Assembly: GCA_022828595.1 (NCBI GenBank)
Contig: JAKGHH010000008.1
Location: 8,483,728 to 8,547,727, forward strand
Reading direction: 5' to 3'
DNA length: 64,000 nt
Origin: Nelumbo lutea
Lineage: Eukaryota; Streptophyta; Magnoliopsida; Proteales; Nelumbonaceae
This document shows positions 30,101 to 48,100 of this stretch, piece by piece; the stretch's first letter is position 1; each line of letters starts with the position of its first letter. The translations under genes and the position numbers were made by a program. The notes under the pieces are model-generated. The model searched no databases. It had not been told where the DNA came from and saw only the letters and a list, made by a program, of their open reading frames with translations.

Positions 30101-33100
30101 TGGCGGTGGGGTCAACCTGCAACCAAAAGTGGAAAGAAACCATTCCCAAAGATCAGTAGCAAAGGGGCAAGAAACTAATAAGTGGTAGGAGCTTTCACCA
30201 TTAGCCTTGCAAAGAATGCACCAATTCGGAGACAAGCACCAAAAAGGCCTTTTTCTTTGGAGTACGTCACATGTATTACATCTTCCGAGGAAGGCTTCCC
30301 AACAAAAGGCTCCAATCCTTGGAGGAATCGGCTCACCCCAAACATCCTTAACTGGAAAGTTTTGTGCAAATGGACTGGATGAAGGCAATAGGAACTTGAA
30401 GAAAGAGGCACAAGAGAAGGTTCCAGAGGGAATTAGGGTCCATAGTCTCTTATCCCTCTCAAAGGAATCCAACACCACCCGGTCTAAGATCTGAACCAGA
30501 CTCATGGCATTTTCAACCTCTACATCCCTTAAGCCTCTTCTAAGCCCCAGATCCCAATCAAACCCAAAATTAGACTGAGAATGAACTAGAAAACTGGACA
30601 CAACCTTGCCCTTAAATCAGGAGAGTGAAAACAAGGGAATTGGTCTTTCATAGGTATCTCACCCACCCAAATGTGCTCCCAAAACTTTACCTGATTCCCA
30701 GAGCAGAGATCATACCTAATGTGCTGCAAAAATGAAGGAAGAATGGCATGTATAGATTTCCAATGAGAGGCACCAACAGACCTTGCCAAAGTCCCAGTGT
30801 CCTAGCCATCATCTGCCTAACCGTGAATACTTAAAATTACCCTTGTCCACAGCTTATCCCTCTCACCTCCACAGCCATTCCCCAACAAGGCTTCACTTTT
30901 CCACCGAATGTTACCTAAACCTAACCCTCTGTCAGCCCTACTCCTAGAGACTAGTTCCCAATTCACCCTGTGATCCTTCCTCTCCTCCCCTGGTTCCCAC
31001 AAGAAGTCTCTCATTAACTTCTTCAAACTCCTACTTATCTTCACCGGGATCCTAAAAACCGATAAATAATACACAGGCAAACTAGCTAGTGTAGATTTGA
31101 TCAAAGTAATTCTACCACCCAGAGATAAATAGTTCTTCTTCCAAGAGGCTAGCTTCTTAGCAAATCTATCAATTACGGGGCTCCAAAAGCTCTCTTTCCT
31201 CGGGTTATCCCCTAAGGGCATTCCCAAATAGTTTAGCGGCCATTGAGACACCGTACAACCCAAAGCTTCAGTCCTCTCCAATATAGCTTATTAAACAAAA
31301 TAACTTGTTTAACAAGCAAAAATAAATTAAGAACATTTTTTAAATTCTAAATTTGTCTAGTGAAGCTTCTAATAGGTAAGTTCAGGAATAAAAAAAAAAA
31401 CAAGAAGGAAAATATTTCCTTGATCATTCCAAGCACTAATAAAAAATCTAGTAAATAAACTTCTAGAAAGAATTAAATACTTTTCAACACACAAGCGACT
31501 TTTGAGTGCAACTTTTAAAATAAGGTAATTATCATTAAAAAATTTTTCAGTTGACAAATTATGAAACACAGACAAAGTTACAAACCATAATTTCTCCTTG
31601 CTTCAGATTCTTTCCTTTAACCACATTCATTGGGCATTTCAAAGCCAAGTCTTCAGATATAAAACCAGTTCCATCAGTGTGTATAAGAGGTTCCCCACCT
31701 TCATTACAAATGATGTGTCCATCCTCATCCTACAATTCACAAGCATATCAACTTAACAAAATGAATACCAAAAAATTAAGCTTTATTAACAGACGCATAT
31801 TAAACAAGGTAATCTCAACCTTTTCTACAGACTAAAAGGAAACAAACTGAAATACCCGGCATGGTTCGTCTTCTATCCTTTGGATATCCACAGATGCAAG
31901 ATCTACCTCAAGCTTGATGGTCTTTGACAAAATGAGAGAAAACCTACACTCCCAAATTATCATGATGTTTTAAAGGAAATAAGAATAAATATGGCCATAG
32001 AAGAAGGCAAATAGGTTACCAACCTAGCCATATATTTAGAAATGTTGGAAACTGTGTGTACATGCATAAACACAGACCGTGCTTCATGAACTGATTTATT
32101 AAATAAAATATATTGTGTTTTCTCCTCCAATGATGCGTTAGACTCCAGGCAAACAAAATAACATTTTACAGGTGATGAAGCTGGATTTTTCCTCTTTTTT
32201 TCTTTACCTCCATCTTTGAAAACTGGAAGAAAAATAGTTATAAGATAGATGAAACTAATGTTACCATTCTTGAAATATATAGGAAAAAAAGGAAAGAAAA
32301 AGGAGATTCATATTATGGAATAACTTTCCAGTACAAAACATGAATAAATGACTAAGACTTTGTATAGCAAGGAGGGCTTAAGCAACAAGAACAAGAAGAA
32401 ATCATGTTTGGCCTGCAAGTCAAGATGGAATGATGGATATTATTTTTCCAATAACAGCAATCACTTCAACAAGCTATAGTTGGGGAGCTCAAGGGATGAG
32501 ATCCAAGCCAGCTTAACATATACCAAGCCTTTCCCTTTTACATACATTGGTGTACAAACCAGCATTGCAACAGCACCTTAATTTTGATAACGCAACAGCA
32601 CTTTAATACCCTTATTACTTAATTCACAGTGAAAAAAACACAGGAGCAACACCACTGAACACTAAACCAGCACCTACTCAATGATCAAACTCCAGGTTAC
32701 TTGAGAAAAAACAGTCCTACGCCCTTCATAGACAAACCAGACCACTCCCAAGTATGGATGAAGGCTACTCACCACCAAATCAGACCACACAGGCACAAGA
32801 TACTGAAGGATTACTGCTGTTACAGCAGAAATAGTTCATACCAGACCTAACGAGAGTACGTACTATTTTCAGGCAAGAGATATCAGAGAAGGAGAGGAGG
32901 AAGAGAGGAGAGAAGAGAGACAAAAAAAACTGGATTAAAACTTGTATCTGGCGGCGTCAGATATTAGCTTATATATTAGGGCAACCCAACTAATAATAAA
33001 AAGAAAAGGAAATTACAAGAGTGCCCTTACAGCACTAAAAAACAGAAAAGCATAAATAAAACGCCTCAGAGAAGAGGCTAACTGATTCCAACACTCCCCC

Positions 33101-36100
33101 TCAAGTTGGGACATAGATATCAATCATGCCCAACTTGTCGCATAAATCATTGTGCCGCGGATGATATAATCCCTTGGTAAAGATGTCTGCAAGTTGATCC
33201 GTGGAACTAAAATATGGAGTGCACATTTCCCCATTTATAATTTTCTCCCTAATAAAATGCTTGTCAACCTCAATATGTTTAATTCTATCATGGAGCACTG
33301 GGTTGGCAGCAATGTTGATAGCAACTTTATTATCACAATACATGGATATGGGGCCATCAACAGGAAATCCCAACTCACTCAACAAGTTCTTTATCCACAT
33401 AACTTCAGCCACTCCATGGGACATTGCTCTATATTCAGCTTCAGCACTAGACCTTGCCACAACATATTGTTTCTTGTTTCTCCACGTGACTAGGTTTCCT
33501 CCTCCCACAAAGGTGCAATACCCACTAGTAGACTTTCTGTCATCAACTGATCTGGCCCAGTCAACATCTGTATACACCTCAACCTTCAAGTGGCCATTCT
33601 TTTGGAAAAGTAAACCAGCCCCTGGGAACTTCTTTAGGTACCTGAGAATTCTATCGGCTGCCTCTAAGTCTTTGGGGCATGCATGAATTGACTAAGAACA
33701 CCCACAACATAAGCAATGTTTGGTCGTGTCATAGACAAATATAATAGTCTGCCCACAAGTCTCTGGAATTGTTTCACATCCTTGATAGTCTCACCTTGAC
33801 AATCACTTAACTTGACAATCACTTAATCTATGGTTTGGATCAATAGGGGAGTCAACAAGTTTGACTCCAAGTTTTCCTGTATCCTGTAATAAATCTAGGG
33901 TGTATTTTCTTAGAGAAATGAAGATCCCCTTTTTCAAACTGGCCACTTCAAATCCAAGAAAATACTTCAAGAGACCTAGATCTTTCACCTCAAATTGAAT
34001 GGCTAGGAACTCCTTTAATCTCTGAATTCCCACCTTCCAGTCGCCTGTGATCACTATGTCATCAACATACACTATCAAAGCTACAATTTTTCCTTCTCCC
34101 TTTTTCACAAATAATGTATGATCAGTCTGACATTGTTTATAACCAATTTGTTGTACAACTAGGTAAAACTTGTTGAACCAAGCTCTCGGTGACCATTTTA
34201 GTCCATACAAGGACTTCTTTAACCTACACACCTTTTTTTTCTTGGTCTTGAGCATAGAAACCAGGAAGTTTCACCATGTACACTTCTTCAAGATCACCAT
34301 TCAAGAAGGCATTTTTAATATCTAACTGGTGGAGATCCCAATCAAGGTTAGCAGCAAGAGAAAAAAGAACTCTGATAGAATTCATCTTTAGCAACCAGAG
34401 CAAATGTCTCTGCATAGTCTACTCCATACACCTGAGTAAACCCTTTCGCCACCAACCGAACTTTGTACCTTTCTACTGTACCATCATCCCTGTGCTTTAC
34501 TGTAAAAACCTACTTGCACCCTACCGGTTCCTTTCCCACAAGGAGATCCACTAATTCCCATGTACCGTTTTTATGTAAGGGATCCATCTCTTCTTTCATT
34601 GCATCTGTCCACTCAGGTACTGAAAGAGCTTCTGCCACATTTTTGGGGATAGGGATACTGTCAATGGAAGAGAGAAAAGAAAGAAAGGAGGATGAGATGT
34701 TCTCATATGAGATAAAGTGGGAGATAGGATGTCTGGTGGTACAGGACCTAACTCCCTTCCTTTGTGCAATAGGGATGTCAAGGTCATTGGCAAAAGAAGA
34801 ATTAATAGCAATAGGATCAGGAATATCAACGGGAATAATAGTACCTAATGGAATGTGATCTGTCCCCAATGAATCTGATGATGTTGGTGGTATAGTTTCA
34901 AGTTGCTCCACAGCTTTTTAACCCAACTAGCCCTTGCAGTGACGGAGAAAGACATGGAACGGAGGAGGGTCAAATAGGGGAGGTAGTACTTGAAATTGTT
35001 TCTCCTTCACCCCATTCTCCCCATGAGGAGAAACCGGGAAGAAGGGATCACCCTCAAAGAAAGACACATCCATAGAAACATAGTATTTTCGAGAGACGGG
35101 ATCGAAACAATGGTAACCCTTTTGGAAAGAAGGATAACCCAAGAATACACAAGGAAGAGCACGAGGGTCAAGTTTACCATGGTTAGGAGACAAGTTTTGA
35201 ACAAAACAACGACAACCAAACACACGAATGGGAATAGAAAAGATGGGAGCTTTGGGAAATAGGAGCTGATGAGGGGCCTTGTACCCTAACACTCGAGATG
35301 GCATACAGTTGATGAGATAGGTAGCACATAACACAGCATCCAACCAAAAACGTTTTGGAACACTCATATGGATGAGTAACCCACGAGCCACTTCAAGTAG
35401 ACGGCGGTTTTTCTTTCTGCAACACCATTTTTTTTAGGAGTTTTGGCACAAGAACTACGACGGATAGACCCACACGAAGCAAAGAACTCCGTGAGATCAC
35501 TGTGGAAGTATTCTTTGGCATTGTCAGACTAGAAAATTTGGATCTTTGTCTGAAATTGAGTAAATATCATAAGATGTAAATCAGTCCTCAAATATTAGGT
35601 ATAAATTTGAATATTAGAAGAAAAAGAAGAAGAGAAGTAAGAGCAGCAACACAAGAGAAGAAGATGGCGAAAAAGAGAAGGAAGAAGAAGAAAAATTGAA
35701 TTATTTTCCCTTTCTCCTCTAATCCTTTTTTATTAAGAATTAAAGTTAGAGTAATGACAAGTATGCCCTTAAGTGGGCGGCCAGCTAGGCAGTAACATAA
35801 AGAGATTAAACAAAAAGAAATAACAGGCCCATTAAGAGAGGCCCATTAGCCAACAATAAAAGAAAAGATATTACAAGAGAAGATACTAGGACCCATTCGG
35901 TCCAGTCTCTTTACATCATATGTTGGAAATCTTTCACAATCTTTGGTACTTCATCTATGGACCGCATAGATGATAAAGTAACAGGGCCCCAAACATCAGA
36001 ATAAACAATATGGAAAGGGAAATTGAATTTATTATTTCTTGAAGAAAAATGATTTCTACAATGTTTGCTCAACTGACAAGTTTGACATTTGAACTCAGAC

Positions 36101-39100
36101 ACTGACACTTATTTAAATAAATCCGAAAGTAAGACCTTTAACGACCCAAACGACTATGCCATAAGTAAACTTCACTCATACTAGACTGACTCGTAGACTC
36201 AATGACCGCAAGACTAGCTTTGTTCTCTAGTATGTAGAGACCATCCACCATACGACCTCTACCAATCATCTTCCCCAAGTCCAAATCCTATAGAACACAA
36301 GAAGGGAAAAAGGTCACTAAACAGTTAAAGAGTTTGTAATGCTACTGACAGAAAACAAATTTATAGGTAATTTTGAAACATGTAACACATTAGAAAGGGT
36401 AAGTCTAAAAAGAAGGGTTATGGTTCCTTCACCAACTATGGTGGAAAAAGAACCATCAGCTAATCTCACTTTGTCCCTACCAGATAAAAGTTGATAAGAT
36501 TGGAAACAATTTGACTTACCCGTCATATGGTTTGAGGCTCCAGAGTCAATTATCCAAGGGGAATCAGATAAATGGGAAGACACATGGAAGGCTGTGGCAG
36601 GATTGCCATTACCTGAAGTAGATGCAAAGGAAGTCGAGGTAGGAGAAGCAGAATCCATTTGGCCAATTGCTCTCCCATACAGATCCAAGTGGTCACGGAA
36701 AGAATTGATGATATCTTCCCGGGGATCGACAACGGATGGGCGGTCCTAGTGAATAGCAGTAGATGACTGAGACTCCCGAGAGGCCAAATTTGTTGTATTA
36801 AACTTTTTTTTACTCTTTTATCTTGGCTTCTTATTATGATATGATTTCTTACTCAACTCTTGGGCCCACTTTGGCTTTCCATGGAGGTCCCAACAAGTAT
36901 CTTGAGTATGTTTGGCCTTCTGGCAGTGAGTACACCATAACTTATCTTTATCATCCACTCTCTTCTGGATATCACCTTTCTTATTGCCTCCTACACCCAT
37001 ACTCCCTTTAGCCACTAAGGCAATCTGCTCCCTTTCGAAGCTATTCATCACACTTCGCCTGCTCACTTCGGATTGAACTAGAGCATACACTTCTTGTACT
37101 GAAAGAAGATCTTTATGATAGGCCCCAATTAATGCCAGGAAGAGGGAAGGTCAACAATCAGCTAAGGGGGGGAAATAATTGAACAATTAATCACATGAGG
37201 GCAATTATAGCTGGAGGGAATAAGGAGAGTCTTGGGGCATTTATAGCTATGTCAGTTATGAATAAGAAGAGTTTTTGGGCATTTATAACTAGGCCAACTG
37301 GGCATTTATAGAGGGAGTCAATTATGCTATCAGTAGAGTATAAGAAGGGGCTTTGGGGGATGGGGGGTGGCATGTTTTTCTTGGAGTGAAGAATATTGAG
37401 AGTGTTTGGGAGAGCCGGCGGTCTCTCGAAGTACCGACCAACTGTTACTGTTTTCTGCTGAATGAATACTAGTTTCTTTTGTTGATATTCAAGTGTGTGA
37501 ACTCTGTTGTGAGTCTAAGAACTGTGTGTCAAATTTCTGGGTCATATCAGTGGTATCAGAGTGCGTCTTTCCTCGGCCATAGTGACAGCAAGGAAGTGGC
37601 ATCGCAGGTGGAGGGTTTTGAAGAACGCTTGACTTCTCTGCATTCTGAATTTCGTGGGGAGATGGATGGCTTACGTGATGAGATAGCAGCTGGACTTTCG
37701 AAGATCTCGTCTCTGGAAGGAGCCGTTCAAGACTTGGTAAGGGAAGAGTGCGGCTGTTCCGACGTCCCCTTCAATGACAGTCCCGGAACGTATTTCTGAT
37801 TCACTTCCTCCGAAGTTGGAGTTGCCTATTTTTGATGGGGAAAATCCAGACGACTGGCCGTTTCGCGCAGAGCACTATTTTGAGATTAATGGCTTGCTTC
37901 CGGCGGAACGTCTACGGGCAGCAGTGGTCTGTTTAGAGGGTGATGCATTGGCATGGTATTATTGGGAGGATGGTCGGCGACCTTTTCGAAGTTGGGCAAA
38001 ATTCAAGGAACTCCTCCTTGAACGTTTTTGATCAACTCAGGAGGGAAACTTGCAGGAGCAGCTTCTATCATTACGTCAATCCACTATTGTTGAAGATGAT
38101 CAAGACTGCTATCAGTCTTGGACACTAAGGAATTTCAGGTTCGAACAGAAGAGAAAGTGAAGAAGAGAGAGGAGAAAGATTAGTGAGAGAGCAGTAGAAC
38201 ACAAGTTTGAAAGGAAGGACAGATTCTGAATAATCTGCCGCCGCCACTTCAATTTAATATTTATATGTTATGCTAGTTACATGAAAGGACATATTTGCCC
38301 TTGGTGTTTACATCATAACACTTAACAATATAAAAAACTGAAAAGTAAATAACAAAACTAGAATAACAGAATAACATAACAGATAGACTAGGTATATTCT
38401 ACCCTACGGACCACATCAGTTTCTCTACACTCCCCCTCAAGTTGGGAGTAAATGTTTATCATTCCCAACTTGGATAGATCCGCTTCTAGCTTCTTTCTTG
38501 ATACAGCTTTAGTGAGGATATCTGCTAGTTGCATACTGGATGTGATGTAAGGGAGGCATATTTCCTGAGATGAGACCCTCTCTCGTACAAAATGTCGGTC
38601 AACTTCAATGTGTTTGGTTCTGTCATGCTGCACTGGATTATGTGCTATATTAATGGCGGCTTGATTATCACAATACAGCATTAGAGGCTTCTCATACTCA
38701 ATACCCAACTCCTCAAGTAGAGATCTTAGCCATAGGATTTCAGCCACTCCGTTGGCCATGGACCTGTATTCTGCTTCAGCACTAGACCGGGAGACAACAC
38801 TTTGTTTCTTACTTCTCCAAGAGACAATGTTTCCTCCCACAAGGGCACAATATCCTGAGGTAGACCGTTTGTCATCAACCTCCACCTTCATGTGGTTATT
38901 GTTCTTGAATAGTATACCCCTACCCGGGCATCTCTTCAAGTAGGCTAAAATTCTTTCTGCCGCAAGAAGATGTGTGGTTCTAGGAGAATGCATGTACTGG
39001 CTGACAACATTAACAGCATAAGTAATATCCGGTCGAGTGAGGCAGAGATATAGGAGCTTTCCTACCAACTGCTGGAACATAACTTTGTCTTCAAGCAGCT

Positions 39101-42100
39101 CCCCACTCTCTGCACTAATCCTGTGGTTCTGTTCAATGGGTGTATCTACAGGTTTGACACCCAGCTTTCCAGTTTCAGCCAACAGATCTAAAACATATTT
39201 CCTCTGAGAGACAAAGATCCCCTGTTTAGATCTAGCAACCTCAATGCCCAAAAAATACCGTAGTGTACCCAGATCTTTCACCTCAAACTCTTGATGGAGC
39301 TGTTTGAGGGACTCAATCTCATGGCTGTCATTTCCTGTCACCACAATATCATCAACATATACTACAAGTAGTGTCAGTGAAGACTCCACCCTCTTGATGA
39401 ACAGTGTATGATCTGACTGGGCCTGTACATAACCGAACTTTCCAAGAGCTAGTCTGAATCTGTCGAACCAAGCTCTAGGTGACTGCTTCAAACCATACAA
39501 TGCCTTATTGAGCCGGCAGACCTTCTTACCTGTCTCTATATCGTAGTATCCAGGAGGCAACTGCATGTAAACCTCTTCCTGCAAGTCCCCATTCAGGAAG
39601 GCATTTTTAACATCCATTTGGTACAAAGGCCAAGTGTGGCTTGCTGCAAGAGATAATAGAACCCGAATGGTGGTCATCTTGGCTACCGGGGCAAATGTCT
39701 CCAAGTAATCTATACCATAAGTCTGAGTGAACCCTTTTGCAACTAGCCGAGCTTTGTACCTCTCAATGGATCCATCTGCATTGTGCTTCACAATAAATAC
39801 CCATCTGCATCCAAATGGTTTCTTTCCTTTGGGCAAGTCAACTAGCTCCCAGGTATTATTTTTCAACAGGGCATCCGTTTCAACTTGCATTGCACCTCTC
39901 CACTCCAGGACTGATAGGGCCTCTTGTACTGTTCTTGGAATAGGACATTGGAAATGGAACTAAGGTAGGACCTGTAGGTAGGAGATAGGTGATCATAGGA
40001 TAAAAAATGGGAAATACAGTGGGTTGTAGATGTGGTACAATGTCGTTTCCCTTTACGGACTGCGATCGGAAGATCAAGGTCATCTGTAGGAGGTGAAATG
40101 GCAACAATAGAAGAAGTCTCTGTGGGTCCTGAAACTGTAATGTCTGGACCTGGAGCCGTAGATGAGATTGGAGCTGGCCTGGACTGCTGATGATCGGGAT
40201 CAACCTGCCTGCACCGCCTGTGATAGACCCTCAACTCCTGATCCCTCTGACCACCCTCACCATTGCAGCCCCCCCTCAACTCCTGATCCCTCTGGCCACC
40301 CTCACCATTGCAGCTCCCATCACCCAATGGAATAGGTAAAGGAACTACCCCACTCTCACTGCTCTCCCCCTGAAGACAAGGACTTAAACCCCTACTCTCA
40401 CTACTCTCTCCCTGAGGAGAAACCCGAGGATAATAAGGTGTCTCCTCAAAGAAAGTGACATCCATGGAGACGAACTTCCTCCCTGTGACAGGATCATAGC
40501 AGCAATACCCCTTTTGAGTTTGTGCATAACCAAGGAAAATGCATTTGGAGGCCTTGGGTTCAAACTTGGAGTGATGGGGTCCGAGAAGCTGAACAAAGCA
40601 GGTACAACCGAATGTTTTAAGGGGAATAGAAAACAACTCCTCATGTGGGTATAGAAGGGAAAAAGGAGATCACAAATCAAGAACCCGGGAAGGAATCCGA
40701 TTAATAAGATATACCGTCATGAGGATAGCAACACCCCAGAAGCGAATAGGGACATTGGAGGTAAACATAAGACTTCTAGCCACCTCCAAGATGTGCCTAT
40801 TCTTCCTTTCTGCAACCCCATTCTGCTGAGGTGTATGAGGGCAAGAGCTCTGATGGATAACCCCATGAGTAAGAAGGTAAGATGCCAATGACTTAGCAAA
40901 GTATTCCTTTGCATTATCAGATCTAAGAACTTTAACCTTGACATCAAACTGAGTTAGGATCATTTGGTGAAAGTTTTGGGTCAGGGCGGGAACCTCATCT
41001 CGTGAACGCATAAGATAAACCCAAGAAAACCGGGTATGGTCATCAACAAACAACAAAAAATATTTGTACCCACCCATAGAAGGAATGTGATATGGCCCCC
41101 AAACATCTGTATGCACAAGATCAAAAGGACGATTACTCCTTTTATTACTCAATGAATAAGAGTTTCTACAATGTTTAGCAAACTCACATCTTTCACATTG
41201 CAACTAGGACAACTCAACAGACTCAAACAAAGTAGGAAACAGACTCTTTAAGGACCGAAAAGACAGATGACTCAATCGGTTATGCCAAAGCATAACCGAA
41301 CTCACACTCTGGGAAACAAGTGACCTCTTACCCACTGACTCTTCTCGACGAGAACTCTCCCCGAGCAGATAAATCCCAATTCGTCTCACGGCCAGTCCCA
41401 ATCACCTTCTTCGTCTCCAGGTCCTGAAAAACACACCGGTCAGGGAAGAAAGTTACTGAGCAATTCATGTGTTTGGTAATACTACTGACTGAAAGGAGGT
41501 TAGTATCAAGCTTAGGAACATGTAAGACAGAAGACAAGGAGATCGTATCTGATAACTTAATGTCCCCCTTCCCAGAAATAGGAACCAGGAAGCCATCAGC
41601 AATAGATACTTTATCCCTACCAGATGACAAATGGTAAGAGGTAAACAGTGAAGGCAAGCTAGTCATGTGGTCGGATGCACCTGAATCTATTACCCAACAA
41701 GGTTCAATAGTACCTGGAGTTGAGGCATGGTAGGCTGAAGCTAGAGTACCTGAATTTACAGTTGTAATCTGACCACCCATCTCAGAAACACTGCCATAAC
41801 TGATGCCTCCAAAGCTGCCTTCTGCCTGATTTTTAAACTCCATCTCGGTAAAGTCTTAAAACAGCACTTGGACTACCAATCACAATCAAAAACAGTATAG
41901 GCCTGATCTGTATTCATAGTGTATGTGCACAAAACTGGGATAACTCTGATCTGAAATCAACTAACAAACACAACAGTGGCTGTCCGTAGAGCTCTAACCC
42001 CTTTAAGAGAGTTCGAAAACCCCAAAAAACTCTGAAAAAACAGCTTAGAAGGAGGTCTGATTTGCCTTTGCAGAATTAGGGTTTTAATCAGTCCTTAAAG

Positions 42101-45100
42101 TGCTCAATTCAGTTGCACAATCTAATCAGTACTGTATAGATAGACTTGCAGTAGGGTTAATATGAAACCCTAGAATCTGATCAATGCTAACAATAAACTT
42201 GAGGACAGCTCTAGATAGATCACAAGATTCAGTCCAGCACTAGGGCTTGCCGCAAGATCACTTTCAAACTCTAGTGCAGAAAGAAACAAGGCTGAGACAG
42301 TTCGGTGTAAAACAGTAGGGTTTTAATCACAGCAGAACAGTAGGGTTTGCTGTAAAACCCTAGAGAATCGAAGTGTAAAACAGTAGGGTTTTAATCACAG
42401 CAGAACAATAGGGTTTGCTGTAAAACCCTAGTGAATCGAAGAGATGAAAACCTAGAACGGTTCAGCCTTCCTCTCCAGATAGGTCCAACCTATCTTTTCT
42501 TAGAAAAGTAGATGACTTACAACAAAAGAATTGTTCGCTGCCTTCTAGGGTTACCCGAACCCTAGTCTTCTCTGATCCTTCCTGACCACCAATACTCTGC
42601 AACCATAACAAAACTTCCAACAGCTGCTAGCACTTCTGGCGATCTCCAAGAATCAGTCTGCGAACTCCACCTTTTCAGCTTCTAGTCCTAGGAGATTCTC
42701 ATGTGGTCAGCTGGTATTAGACTCACATAAGAAACCCTAACTTGGCTTTGATACCATGAAGATGATCAAGACTGCTATCAGTCTTGGACACTAAGGAATT
42801 TCAGGTTCGAACAGAAGAGACCCTAACTTGGTTCTACCCTACGGACAGAGTGGCCCCACAGCTGTGAGGCCCACATCAGTTTCTCTACAACTGTCAAGGA
42901 ATATCGTCGCCATTTCAAGGTGCTTTCTGCCCCCTTACTTGACCTGCTAGAATCAGTCCCTGAAGCAGCCTTTGTGAATGGATTGCGCCCAGATATCCAG
43001 GCCGAACTCTAACAGATGGAACCCGTTGGGTTGATCAAAAAAATGGTTGCGGCCCAGAAGATTGAGGATAAGAATCAGGCCCTTTGGGCTTATCAATCAA
43101 CAGCACTTTGCCATACTAGTTGGGAGATCAGCTCAAATAAGTCACCTTGCCCTGATGATTGGGTAATCAGTCCAAATAAGAGCAAGTGTTTTGGGCTGAT
43201 AGAAAACTCCAGTTATTGGGATGAATCCGAGTCCCGATGTAGGGATTATAATGGGCATTTGGCAGCACTGACATCAGCCAAGGAACTAAGTTTTGCTGGA
43301 AAACTCTGCACTAATACAGCAAGAGGCTGTTGGGTTGGAGGAAGAGGCTTCAATTCTACAGGTGGTTTTGGTTGGAAGTGGTCTGACAATGCAACACATT
43401 GGAATGAGTCCATCTTCCCTGGGGCACCATTTCACTCCAATTGCTCCAATTCATCATGCAAAGGCATTAATCTGATCAATACATGTACTTTGGTGACTAA
43501 TGGCCAGCCAACCCTTGTGGGTGAGAGATGCAACAACTCTCATGAGTTCATCTGTATGCTTGAAATAGAGAACACATGCTACCACCTGCGCCGCCACAAG
43601 GAGTATCTTATCATCCTTGCAACTGTTAGTGGGATAATCCTTTGCACAACTTTGGTCGTTGTAATTTGGTTGCTTGCATACAGGAAGAGCAAGAGGCGCA
43701 GAAGGTCTCGCAAAGCATCTAATCCATCAACATCTGCATCAGTTACCCCATCATGGAAAGTCTTCAGCAATGAGGAACTGAGGCCAATTACAAAGAATTT
43801 CAGTGAAGGTAATCGTCTTGTTGAAAATGCCAAGACTGGTGGCTCACATAGTGGGCTTTTACCTGAAGGAAAAAGGGTAGCAGTCAAGAAATTGAAAAGG
43901 TCTAGCTTTCAAAGAAAGAAGGAATTTTATTCAGAGACTGGAAGAGTTGCAAAGCTCCATTATCCTGCTGCCGTGCGCGGTGTGCGTCCATCCACTATGC
44001 ATGGAGTTACTGGTTGGAAGTGCTTATTCATTGGCAGGACTTGCCTGATTTTGAAGATTCTTGGGAGTCTTTTGACTTACTTCGAGACCAGTTTCCTCAT
44101 TTTAACCTTGAGGACAAGGTTAGACTTTGGGCGGCGGGTAATGATAGGCCCCAATTAACGCCAGGAAGAGGGAAGGTCAACAATCAGCTAAGGGGGGGAA
44201 ATAATTGAACAATTAATCACATGAGGGCAATTATAGCTGGAGGGAATAAGGAGAGTCTTGGGGCATTTATAGCTATGTCAGTTATGAATAAGAAGAGTTT
44301 TGGGGCATTTATAACTAGGCCAGCTGGGCATTTATAGAGGGAGTCAGTTATGCTATCAGTAGAGTATAAGAAGGGGCTTTGGGGGATGGGGGGTGGCATG
44401 TTTTTCTTGGAGTGAAAAATATTGAGAGTGTTTGGGAGAGCCGGCGGTCTCTCGAAGTACCGACCAACTGTTACTGTTTTCTGCTGAATGAATACTAGTT
44501 CTTTTGTTGATATTCAAGTGTGTGAACTCTGTTGTGAGTCTGAGAACTATGTGTCAAATTTTTGGGTCATATCACTTTACTTCCTAATATCTAAACTCTA
44601 GGGGACTGATATACAGGGTTCAACCCCAAGAGGAAGGCAAAAACCTATTGTTGGGAAACCAGAGACTTGTAGGCCTTAGCATCAAAATCACACTTCCAGT
44701 CAATGTTCTGATAGTGATCTAGTTCTTTCCAAATTGAGATCAAATCTGAATAATAGGCTGAGAGAGTCCTCTCCCCTTGCTTACAAGTAGAGGAGGCAGC
44801 TTGCAACTGGTATATTTTGGCATAATGACGTTGCTTTGAATAGGTAGATTTTGCCTGCTCCCAAATCTCAATAGTTGTTTCAGCCCACATGAAGATCTTC
44901 CTAACTGGAGGCAACATAGAAAGTAACAGCCATGACATCACCATGTTGTTTTCCTGATCCCACCTATCATGCTCCACCCCCTGAGACTTTGGTTCTTTTG
45001 TTTTACCATTAATATAGCCTACCTTCCCCCTAGTTGTTATGTAGAACTTGATTCCCCTTGACCATTCTAGGTAGTTAAGACTATCAAAAGGTATCACGGC

Positions 45101-48100
45101 CATGGGGAAACTCATGTCAAAACCCCCACTCATTCCACTTTGACAAGAGGACCCACTAGACAGGATAGAATCCTCAGATGACATGTTAAAGGATAGTTCT
45201 GTTTAAAAAAAACACAGTTCAGCCACAATTTATTAACACTTCAGTTCAGCTACGTTCACAGTTCAGTCAAGTTCAGCCCCTGTTCAGTCACAGTTCAATT
45301 TCAGTTCATCCAGTTCAGACCCCAGACCAAGTTCAGCCACTGTTCAGTCACTGTTCAATTTCAGTTCATCCAGTTCAGACCCCAGTTCAGTCACAGTTCA
45401 ATCCCCAATTCAGTCACCAGTTCAGCCACAGTTCAGTTCAGTTAAGTCTTAGTCAGGTATAAATTTTTTTGGATCCCACACATCTACTGGAAAAATTCCC
45501 AAGAATTATAGTCAACCACTGTATTATAGTTACAGGTCATTTTGACCTATATCACCCAGCTATTTGGGCACAGAGATCACATGATCCACAATACTGAGAA
45601 CAAAAAATCACAGCACTTACAGGTCATTCAGACCTCCATAACCCCCTTACCTGGGTACACAAAAAAAGGACCACAGGATCCACAAAAAACAGGTAAAAGA
45701 ACCTTCACAGCATCAAACTTCCCTCTCTTTAATTTGTTTCTTGGCACACGACCAAGAGAGAAGGGAAGAAAGGGCATAGAAAACTTCAGATCAGTCCAAT
45801 GCACTTCCTTGACAGGTTTGATCCACAGCAAGAAGAAACTGAGAAAAAAAAAACTGAGAGAAGAGAGCGATCTCGCAGCTTCTAATCTCAGAAGACCCGC
45901 TCTGATACCATGTTTTCAGGCAAGAGATGTCAGAGAAGGAGAGAAGGAGAGGAGGAGAGGAGGAAGAGAGAAGAGAGACAAAAAAACTGGATTCAAACTT
46001 GTAGCTGGTGGCACCTGCTATTAGCTTATATATTAGGCCGACCCAACTGATAATAAAAAGAAAAGGAAATTACAAGAGTGCCCCTGTGGCACTAAAGAAC
46101 AGAAAAACATAAATAAAATGCCTCAGAGAAGAGGCTAACTGATTCCAACACATACCTCATTAAACAAGGATCACACAATCCACACAGAGCCTTGGAAGAG
46201 TACTAAACCTCCTCACAACATTCAACTACTATGATCACAATGTTTCCTTGGCACACGACCAAGAAAAGAGAGAAACAAAAGCACTTCAACCTGTCTCAGA
46301 CCAAGCCGATTAACTGTTATTGAGTTTCAATCCAAGAAATCAGAGAAAAAGGAAAGAGGAGTTGATTGATCTGTTCTCAGGCCCTAGAGTCCTGCTCTGA
46401 TATCATATTAACAGCAAGAAAATCAGAAAAATAGAGAGAAATCAAAGGACAAAGTCAAAAAGCTAGGCCGGTGGCACCTTTGAGTAAAAAGACAAAAGTG
46501 CTCCCTGCAGCACATATGTCACAAATAAAACAGTTACCAATGTGTCACCCATGCAGGCACCTAGGTTCTCAAGGGCACTCATATGAGTTGCCATGAATAT
46601 ATTGCATATGGCACCTGCCTAATACAGAAAGGCAGTTGTCTAGGCACTAAGGTGCCATAACAAGCAGTTATATGTGTGAGGGGGTAACGACTTTGCAGTT
46701 CTCAGTGCTACATCAAAACATTTCTCTCTCTCAGTGCCAAACTATTGTTTTTTTAAGAGTTTGGCAATTAAAGAGAGGGCCATCAATATTTTTTATCATT
46801 ATTTATCAAGATTTTTGGAACCAGAGTAAACCAAAAAAAAAAAGAAACCAAGCTTCAAAAAATCAATCAATCACTAGTGTTTGGACAAGAAGACTGAAAT
46901 CAATCAGGGCTTGGAGCTTAGCTTCTTTGATTCATTGTAAAAATAAAGAATGTGCGTGAATGAGAAAATGGTCTCAAATCCTTTGTTTCTCTTTTTCTCT
47001 GTCTTCTTGCCCATGCAATCTCCCCCCAACCGCTTTGTTTCTCATAATTTAACCTTTCTACATAAGCAACAGTAAGTGTAATTTTTATTGCAACAACAGA
47101 ATAACGTACAAAGTTGGTAACAGCATAAGCTGCCCCCAATTACAATGTAAATACCATTATCAGTTTACAAGTTCATCCCAAGTCCAGGCATTCCCCAAAC
47201 AATGCTTTCCCTGTTGACCCCCAGACCTAGTCGAAGAATCAGTAAGAGTATTGACTGATCTAAGAATATTCTTGTAATTCAATCTTTCATTCGAAATGGA
47301 GGTGTATGTATGTCTATTTCTGATTTAGCATCATGAATTGTCAGATTTCAATTGTTGCTTACTTGGAAAGAGTTGCTCCTCATTATTAGAAGCAGGTTTA
47401 TCACCACTATGTTACTCTTATTAGTTTATTTATCCATTAGTTTGTTTAACTTGTTAATCTGTTGACTGGTTAGTTTGTCCATGTATACATTGTATTGAAA
47501 TAGTGTGTCTGAAGTACTGCAAACAATGATAGAAAATGTTACCATTTTGTGGATATGAATCATATGATCATCTGACATGCTTTATTGGGTGAAATTCACT
47601 TCTGTTTAGGATATTGTTTCATATTTCTTAACTCTGGTGTTTTTTGATTGTTATCATGACAAGGAAATCAATCTAAGGATCTAGGTTTCTTTTGTCAAAA
47701 TTCATCACCTAGACAACAAGGCACCACTCTGTGACCTAGATTCATTTATACGCTTTGAGAATACTTTAGATAATAGAATGTTTAACTGATCTTTAATCAA
47801 AAAAAGCATCTAAATTAGTCATAAGATATAAATGTTTCCTACAACTTCTATCCTTTCAAAATAGTATAAGTTTAGGAGATTAAGGCAAAAGATCCAAATA
47901 TAAACATTTAACAAACATGGGGCAAATTCTCGCGTAACTGGGAATGCAAAATTATAATGATTGACAATTCCCTGACAATAATGGTAATCACAAACTACAA
48001 AGATTAAAGGAAACAAAGGACTAAATTGGAGTCAACATTCAAATTCCATCACTAATCAAGAACACAATAAAACTTACCAAAAAAATGATAACGGAGCAAA

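Follow-up and report, generated by a model that had tools for sequence, protein, structure and literature searches.

The window analysed here, a stretch of 64,000 nucleotides of Nelumbo lutea DNA, raises the question of how a piece of a host receptor gene came to lie without introns inside a gypsy-type retrotransposon, joined in frame to gag. The initial annotation had proposed that this element, called E, copied a spliced receptor mRNA by template switching and moved as a chimera. We followed this proposal through the layout of E, the donor gene, the other copies in the genome and each of the junctions.

Element E and the donor of its receptor piece

E occupies 37116-44574 and is bounded by two LTRs and a CTTTA target-site duplication. 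The LTR pair shows 8 differences in 433 aligned bases (K2P 0.0188). The matching LTRs and the CTTTA repeats of the initial annotation are borne out. The features are as follows.

37111..37115, no strand: left copy of the target-site duplication CTTTA, read from the sequence
37116..37549, plus strand: 5' LTR of E, 98% match to the 3' LTR over 300 nt
37551..37561, plus strand: TGGTATCAGAG, similar to a primer-binding site, read from the sequence after the 5' LTR
37572..38091, plus strand: first part of gag, with a frame change near 37770 and a stop at 38029-38031
38092..42889, minus strand: copia-type element, a later insert in gag, with identical 64-nt end repeats
42890..43100, plus strand: second part of gag, 88-95% matches to other gag copies
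43101..43568, plus strand: captured exon 2 of the receptor gene, 5' end complete, with the C-type lectin domain (exon 2 of donor L021; Pfam Lectin_C)
43569..43966, plus strand: captured exon 3, start only (transmembrane stretch, kinase start), by comparison with donor L021
43964..43966, plus strand: CCT at the 3' junction, common to the donor, the relative L061 and the chimera by sequence comparison
43967..44141, plus strand: pol end with a chromodomain remnant, 175 nt (Pfam Chromo 5.5e-4, under its curated cut-off)
44142..44574, plus strand: 3' LTR of E, matching the 5' LTR
44575..44579, no strand: right copy of the target-site duplication CTTTA, read from the sequence

TGGTATCAGAG at 37551 resembles a primer-binding site of the initiator-Met tRNA type. 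Pfam Retrotrans_gag was detected on 37741-38028 at 9.7e-4, under its curated cut-off. The upstream gag carries the frame change and the stop listed above and is interrupted by the minus-strand copia element, which is flanked by ATTGT and ACTGT and contains a long pol-like frame on the minus strand (38388-39959). A further stop at 43010-43012 lies in the second part of gag, which abuts the captured exon exactly. Since gag has a frame change, stops and the copia insertion, E is a dead copy. Apart from the later copia insert, only gag, the host piece and the chromodomain end lie between its LTRs, and E has neither a reverse transcriptase nor an integrase. E itself lies within one minus-strand copia element, seen in its flanks (about 32866-46200), and holds a second one.

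The frame 43013-44158 is open for 381 codons and crosses from gag into host sequence at 43101. The claimed passage from gag into lectin without a frame change is thus correct for this stretch, whereas the stop just upstream cuts off the rest of gag. The host piece measures 866 nt (43101-43966) and encodes about 289 codons of a C-type lectin receptor-like kinase (CLRLK), with gag on its 5' side and the chromodomain remnant on its 3' side. Pfam called Lectin_C (8.8e-10) but no kinase in this frame; the predicted length of about 290 codons was accurate, but in place of a kinase N-lobe only the kinase start is present. Likewise, the host piece is real but ends at 43966, short of the annotated feature, and is followed by the chromodomain end, which in E drops out of the open frame behind a single base that differs from relatives. 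The top four protein matches to the captured frame are all from Nelumbo nucifera, and the best full-length match is an At1g52310-type kinase (P0002, 90% identity).

Among the matches listed, the genome contains two CLRLK genes, L021 (C8) and L022 (C2), and not the single copy that had been expected. L021 is 95.3% identical to E over the 866 nt and is the donor gene; L022 is 86.2% identical. In L021, exon 1 ends AGCA/GTGAGT (the slash marks a boundary here and below), intron 1 spans about 2.86 kb, and exon 2 starts TTTGATAG/CAGCACTTTG. Exons 2 and 3 of L021 lie about 220 nt apart, with an intron between them that is absent from E, where the two exons are joined exactly. The donor thus has introns over the captured stretch, as the proposal of a spliced receptor mRNA predicted, and capture of genomic DNA is ruled out by the missing intron. 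Chance similarity is ruled out by the identity to the donor, by the absence of its intron and by the family of 26 loci described below. Because the piece is intronless, is joined exactly at the donor splice site and occurs in at least 26 copies, it was likely taken up as spliced RNA. The chimera lacks exon 1, which likely encodes the signal peptide. The exon 2 acceptor of L021 is a tandem TAG-CAG; the chimera uses the first, and the annotated N. nucifera P0002 fits the second.

Two further N. nucifera proteins, P0001 and P0003, contain the receptor piece with the 3' junction of E and end in the pol/LTR frame of the chimera family, which indicates that the chimera is present in N. nucifera too. 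Both read like element copies, and one is named as a C-type lectin domain protein.

A family of chimeras and a second host gene

A genome search with the captured piece, with the flanks read, gave 33 match rows. Besides the two genes and a single remnant, L029, these comprise 26 chimeric loci. E is therefore not the sole chimera but one of at least 26 loci. Gag lies on one side and the element tail on the other in 26 of 26 loci, and the remnant retains the element tail with an LTR piece; the lectin segment was not found in unrelated places without LTR-element sequence. Three architectures were distinguished. Type 1 (E and L002/L030) has full gag up to the join, captured positions 1-866 and the chromodomain end. 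Type 2 (20 loci: L003-L020, L027 and L028) has a gag-lectin join from which about 200 bp are missing, and the same 3' end as type 1. Type 3 (L023-L026) has captured positions 1-627 followed by a segment of a second host gene, NDUFV1.

LTR pairs were measured in 20 of the 26 copies, six being left out. Exact 5-bp target duplications, all different, flank 11 of these 20; in four others the two copies differ by one base, and in five they are unmatched or unreadable. Since these duplications are exact and different, the copies moved as chimeras, in agreement with the initial annotation. LTR divergence ranges from 0.0165 to 0.107 across the measured copies, the value of 0.186 for L020 being unreliable. 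L017 and L018 (C6, 22.90 Mb and 22.87 Mb) are near-identical, lie in opposite orientation and have the same flanks; they are probably one insertion duplicated with its surroundings.

Several bases of the captured piece are derived. Base 211 is common to all copies and base 334 to all but one, bases 684 and 861 are common to the copies keeping that region, and base 13 is common to the types keeping it. Because derived bases are common to all three architectures, a single capture event is assigned to them from these comparisons, and the tree of captured pieces agrees. We considered whether the 3' half of E is shared with the 20-locus branch through recombination, and rejected this, since common descent is the simpler account of the shared changes at 534, 726 and 838. 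Gag identity between copies jumps from 80% to 99% along its length (L005, L007, L025, L030), and the gag parts are mosaics, which suggests recombination in gag between co-packaged RNAs.

The extra segment in L023-L026 encodes NDUFV1, the 51-kDa subunit of mitochondrial complex I (match to PDB chain 7ar7_F, 4.9e-71). These four copies carry both CLRLK and NDUFV1, and E is without NDUFV1. A DNA search scored the best 40 of 58 candidate copies, and a protein search gave 89 matches, with the best 88 of 136 candidates scored. Among the matches listed, the protein matches group into at least 57 loci, two of near full length and 55 fragments. The fragments start at preferred places: 32 of the 55 at residues 65-111, mostly 67-68, 16 at 206-226, five at 312 or beyond (four of them L023-L026) and two elsewhere. 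The copies read have the order gag-NDUFV1-chromodomain (L065/L066) or gag-protease-NDUFV1 (L059, L044). With at least 57 NDUFV1 loci grouped, the NDUFV1-carrying gypsy-derived family is larger than the receptor-carrying one. The full-length NDUFV1 gene matches as a single unbroken stretch, and thus gives no intron test. A second match at C3:5741934-5743244 covers residues 49-485 with no stop and is either a second gene or a retrocopy. Since the longer NDUFV1 forms fall outside the CLRLK branch, NDUFV1 was likely captured earlier than CLRLK, and the four-copy type 3 branch is a recombinant of the two.

Junctions and the route of capture

The 3' join lies in the middle of an exon and has a 3-nt overlap, CCT: the donor reads CATCATCCT/AATC, L061 reads GGAACCT/GCTATC and the chimera reads CATTATCCT/GCTGCC. 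Two parental 3' ends were read, with CCT in L061 and CAT in L057. The same junction is present in 22 of 22 chimeric loci that keep it. Its mid-exon position and the CCT microhomology fit switching by reverse transcriptase. The later joins are similar. The type 2 gag-lectin join falls on AATCAGTCC, a 9-nt repeat that gag and the lectin exon have in common; the type 3 lectin-NDUFV1 join lies at TCCAT; and about four bases, TATC, at the NDUFV1-chromodomain join are common to the gene and L061. The joins covered by these alignments (3' CLRLK, type 2, TCCAT and NDUFV1-chromodomain) overlap as switching by reverse transcriptase would predict, whereas the 5' CLRLK join does not.

The 5' join is kept in six copies, and in these the host sequence begins exactly at the exon 2 acceptor. 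It reads ...CAAT(C or T)AG/CA... in five copies and ...CAATCAA/CAGCAC in E. To compare gag, the best 40 of 93 candidate relatives were scored and loci were obtained for 30, six of which are chimeras. GT follows the junction position in all 24 uncaptured copies read (L037-L060), which are mutually related, so that these GTs are not independent; TCAG/GTT is present in seven of the 24. As a splice donor the gag site is weak (GTTCAT). Gag shares AG with the last bases of intron 1, which is frequent in splice pairs. The 5' join resembles splicing to exon 2 from a cryptic gag donor of low strength. Given the shared AG, it may also have been formed by a switch on partly spliced RNA. An ordinary template switch explains it poorly, since the join falls exactly on a splice acceptor and directly before GT in gag. 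Template switching, the route of the initial annotation, is thus retained for the 3' junction but not favoured for the 5' junction.

We give a probability of about 0.75 to the reading that E is one of at least 26 gypsy-type copies with an intronless CLRLK piece, in which a read-through RNA was spliced from the cryptic gag site to exon 2 and recombined back during reverse transcription. In this reading, a gypsy element lying in the sense orientation ahead of CLRLK exon 2 would have given the read-through RNA, and the cryptic site in gag would have been spliced to exon 2. The chimeric gag-CLRLK RNA would have been co-packaged with RNA of a pol-bearing relative, and reverse transcription would have joined exon 3 to the 3' end of this relative at CCT. 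The copies would then have spread with the enzymes of the relative. The 20-locus branch would have lost about 200 bp at the 9-nt repeat, and the four-copy branch would have switched once more, at TCCAT, to a relative that already had NDUFV1. The putative helper L049/L061 is judged to be pol-bearing from its integrase-like end and a spacing of 3.96 kb. In the 9 kb that surround L021 no piece of an element was found, and the insertion behind the read-through RNA was not seen.

The rival account with the most in its favour is plain template switching, in which mature receptor mRNA was packaged by chance, reverse transcriptase jumped onto and off this template, and the 5' join matches the exon edge by accident. 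Switching at microsimilarity is a described route of LTR-mediated retroposition, according to PMC5408686, and the 3' join and later joins have such microhomology. However, the 5' join does not overlap the spliced receptor mRNA and falls exactly at the start of exon 2 and exactly at the GT of gag, and we consider this account unlikely.

Read by eye, the frame is kept in six of seven distinct host joins in the lineage: gag to CLRLK, CLRLK to chromodomain, CLRLK to NDUFV1, shortened gag to CLRLK, gag to NDUFV1 and gag-protease to NDUFV1 are in frame, and NDUFV1 to chromodomain is out of frame. If each join had a chance of one third, six or more of seven in frame would have a probability of about 0.007, in a post hoc count of few joins. 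The gag-host fusion frame is broken in E and open in L023 (645 codons as it stands), L024 (568) and L007 (492). It is conceivable, though we hold it doubtful, that this plant gypsy lineage behaved like a transducing retrovirus that took NDUFV1, then CLRLK through a spliced gag-exon fusion, recombined both and was selected for the in-frame gag-host fusion.

These long frames, together with the two related N. nucifera proteins that have been annotated, might suggest that the lectin/kinase piece is kept as a working protein, a decoy receptor or regulator, for the plant or the element. The substitution pattern speaks against it: dN/dS is 1.12 pooled for chimeras against the donor and 0.74 among 25 copies (without the near-duplicate L018), as compared with 0.16 between the donor and its paralogue. 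Nine of 204 private changes make stops against 10.6 expected, which fits neutrality. Among shared changes one stop was seen against 3.9 expected (P 0.08), which is suggestive only. The receptor piece evolves neutrally, and it also lacks exon 1 with the likely signal peptide; a working protein is very improbable. Since the piece evolves neutrally, any selection would be on keeping the frame and not on lectin function. Finally, the host segment is intronless, as a LINE-made processed receptor retrocopy inserted into an LTR element and carried along would be, but with no poly-A tract or duplication at 43101 and 43966, and with a host piece that stands in place of pol and has both its ends within the mRNA, this origin is hardly credible.

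Relation to known capturing elements

Ever since maize Bs1, plant LTR elements have been known to capture host genes, and arguments about how they do so usually start from the end products. Models of retroviral oncogene capture place the 5' join at a splice site. The lotus lineage adds a resolved splice-type junction, serial captures and surviving intermediates. Here the donor can be compared directly with uncaptured relatives, with single-gene chimeras and with two-gene recombinants, which allows either splicing or template switching to be assigned to each junction. A literature search, mostly outside subscription papers, found no title or abstract opening that describes the lotus element.

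PMC13317346 describes Bs1 as a non-autonomous transducing LTR retrotransposon that carries host-gene pieces, from more than one gene within the lineage, and has gag-host fusion frames. E has two LTRs with a target duplication and an intronless host fragment but lacks its own reverse transcriptase and integrase, and its lineage, though not E, has more than one host gene (L023-L026) and an open gag-host fusion frame. Compared with Bs1 as described there, the lotus genes are CLRLK and NDUFV1, the 5' join fits splicing, and dozens of copies exist with single-gene and two-gene forms side by side. On these sequence features the lotus chimera is a well-resolved variant of Bs1-like transducing LTR retrotransposons.

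The intronless host pieces in LTR elements and the junction microsimilarity recall LTR-mediated retroposition (PMC5408686) and the LTR-captured genes of the rice and sorghum survey (PMC3726574). By comparison with what they describe, the lotus chimera kept transposing and recombining, and one of its junctions fits splicing rather than switching.

The likeness to retroviral oncogene capture, as given in PMC4997597, lies in host coding sequence fused to gag, a presumed dependence on a helper and non-homologous switching at the 3' join. In the lotus chimera the 5' join falls at a host acceptor and a gag GT, and the 3' join lies mid-exon with microhomology (L057 differs). Unlike the retroviral cases, it is a plant gypsy element that lacks an envelope and has no known phenotype; its initiating insertion was not seen. 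The lineage shows how element copies end up annotated as receptor genes, and it makes testable whether an in-frame gag fusion helps a parasite without its own enzymes. One of its junctions points to read-through followed by splicing, a route that has been proposed for retroviral oncogenes.
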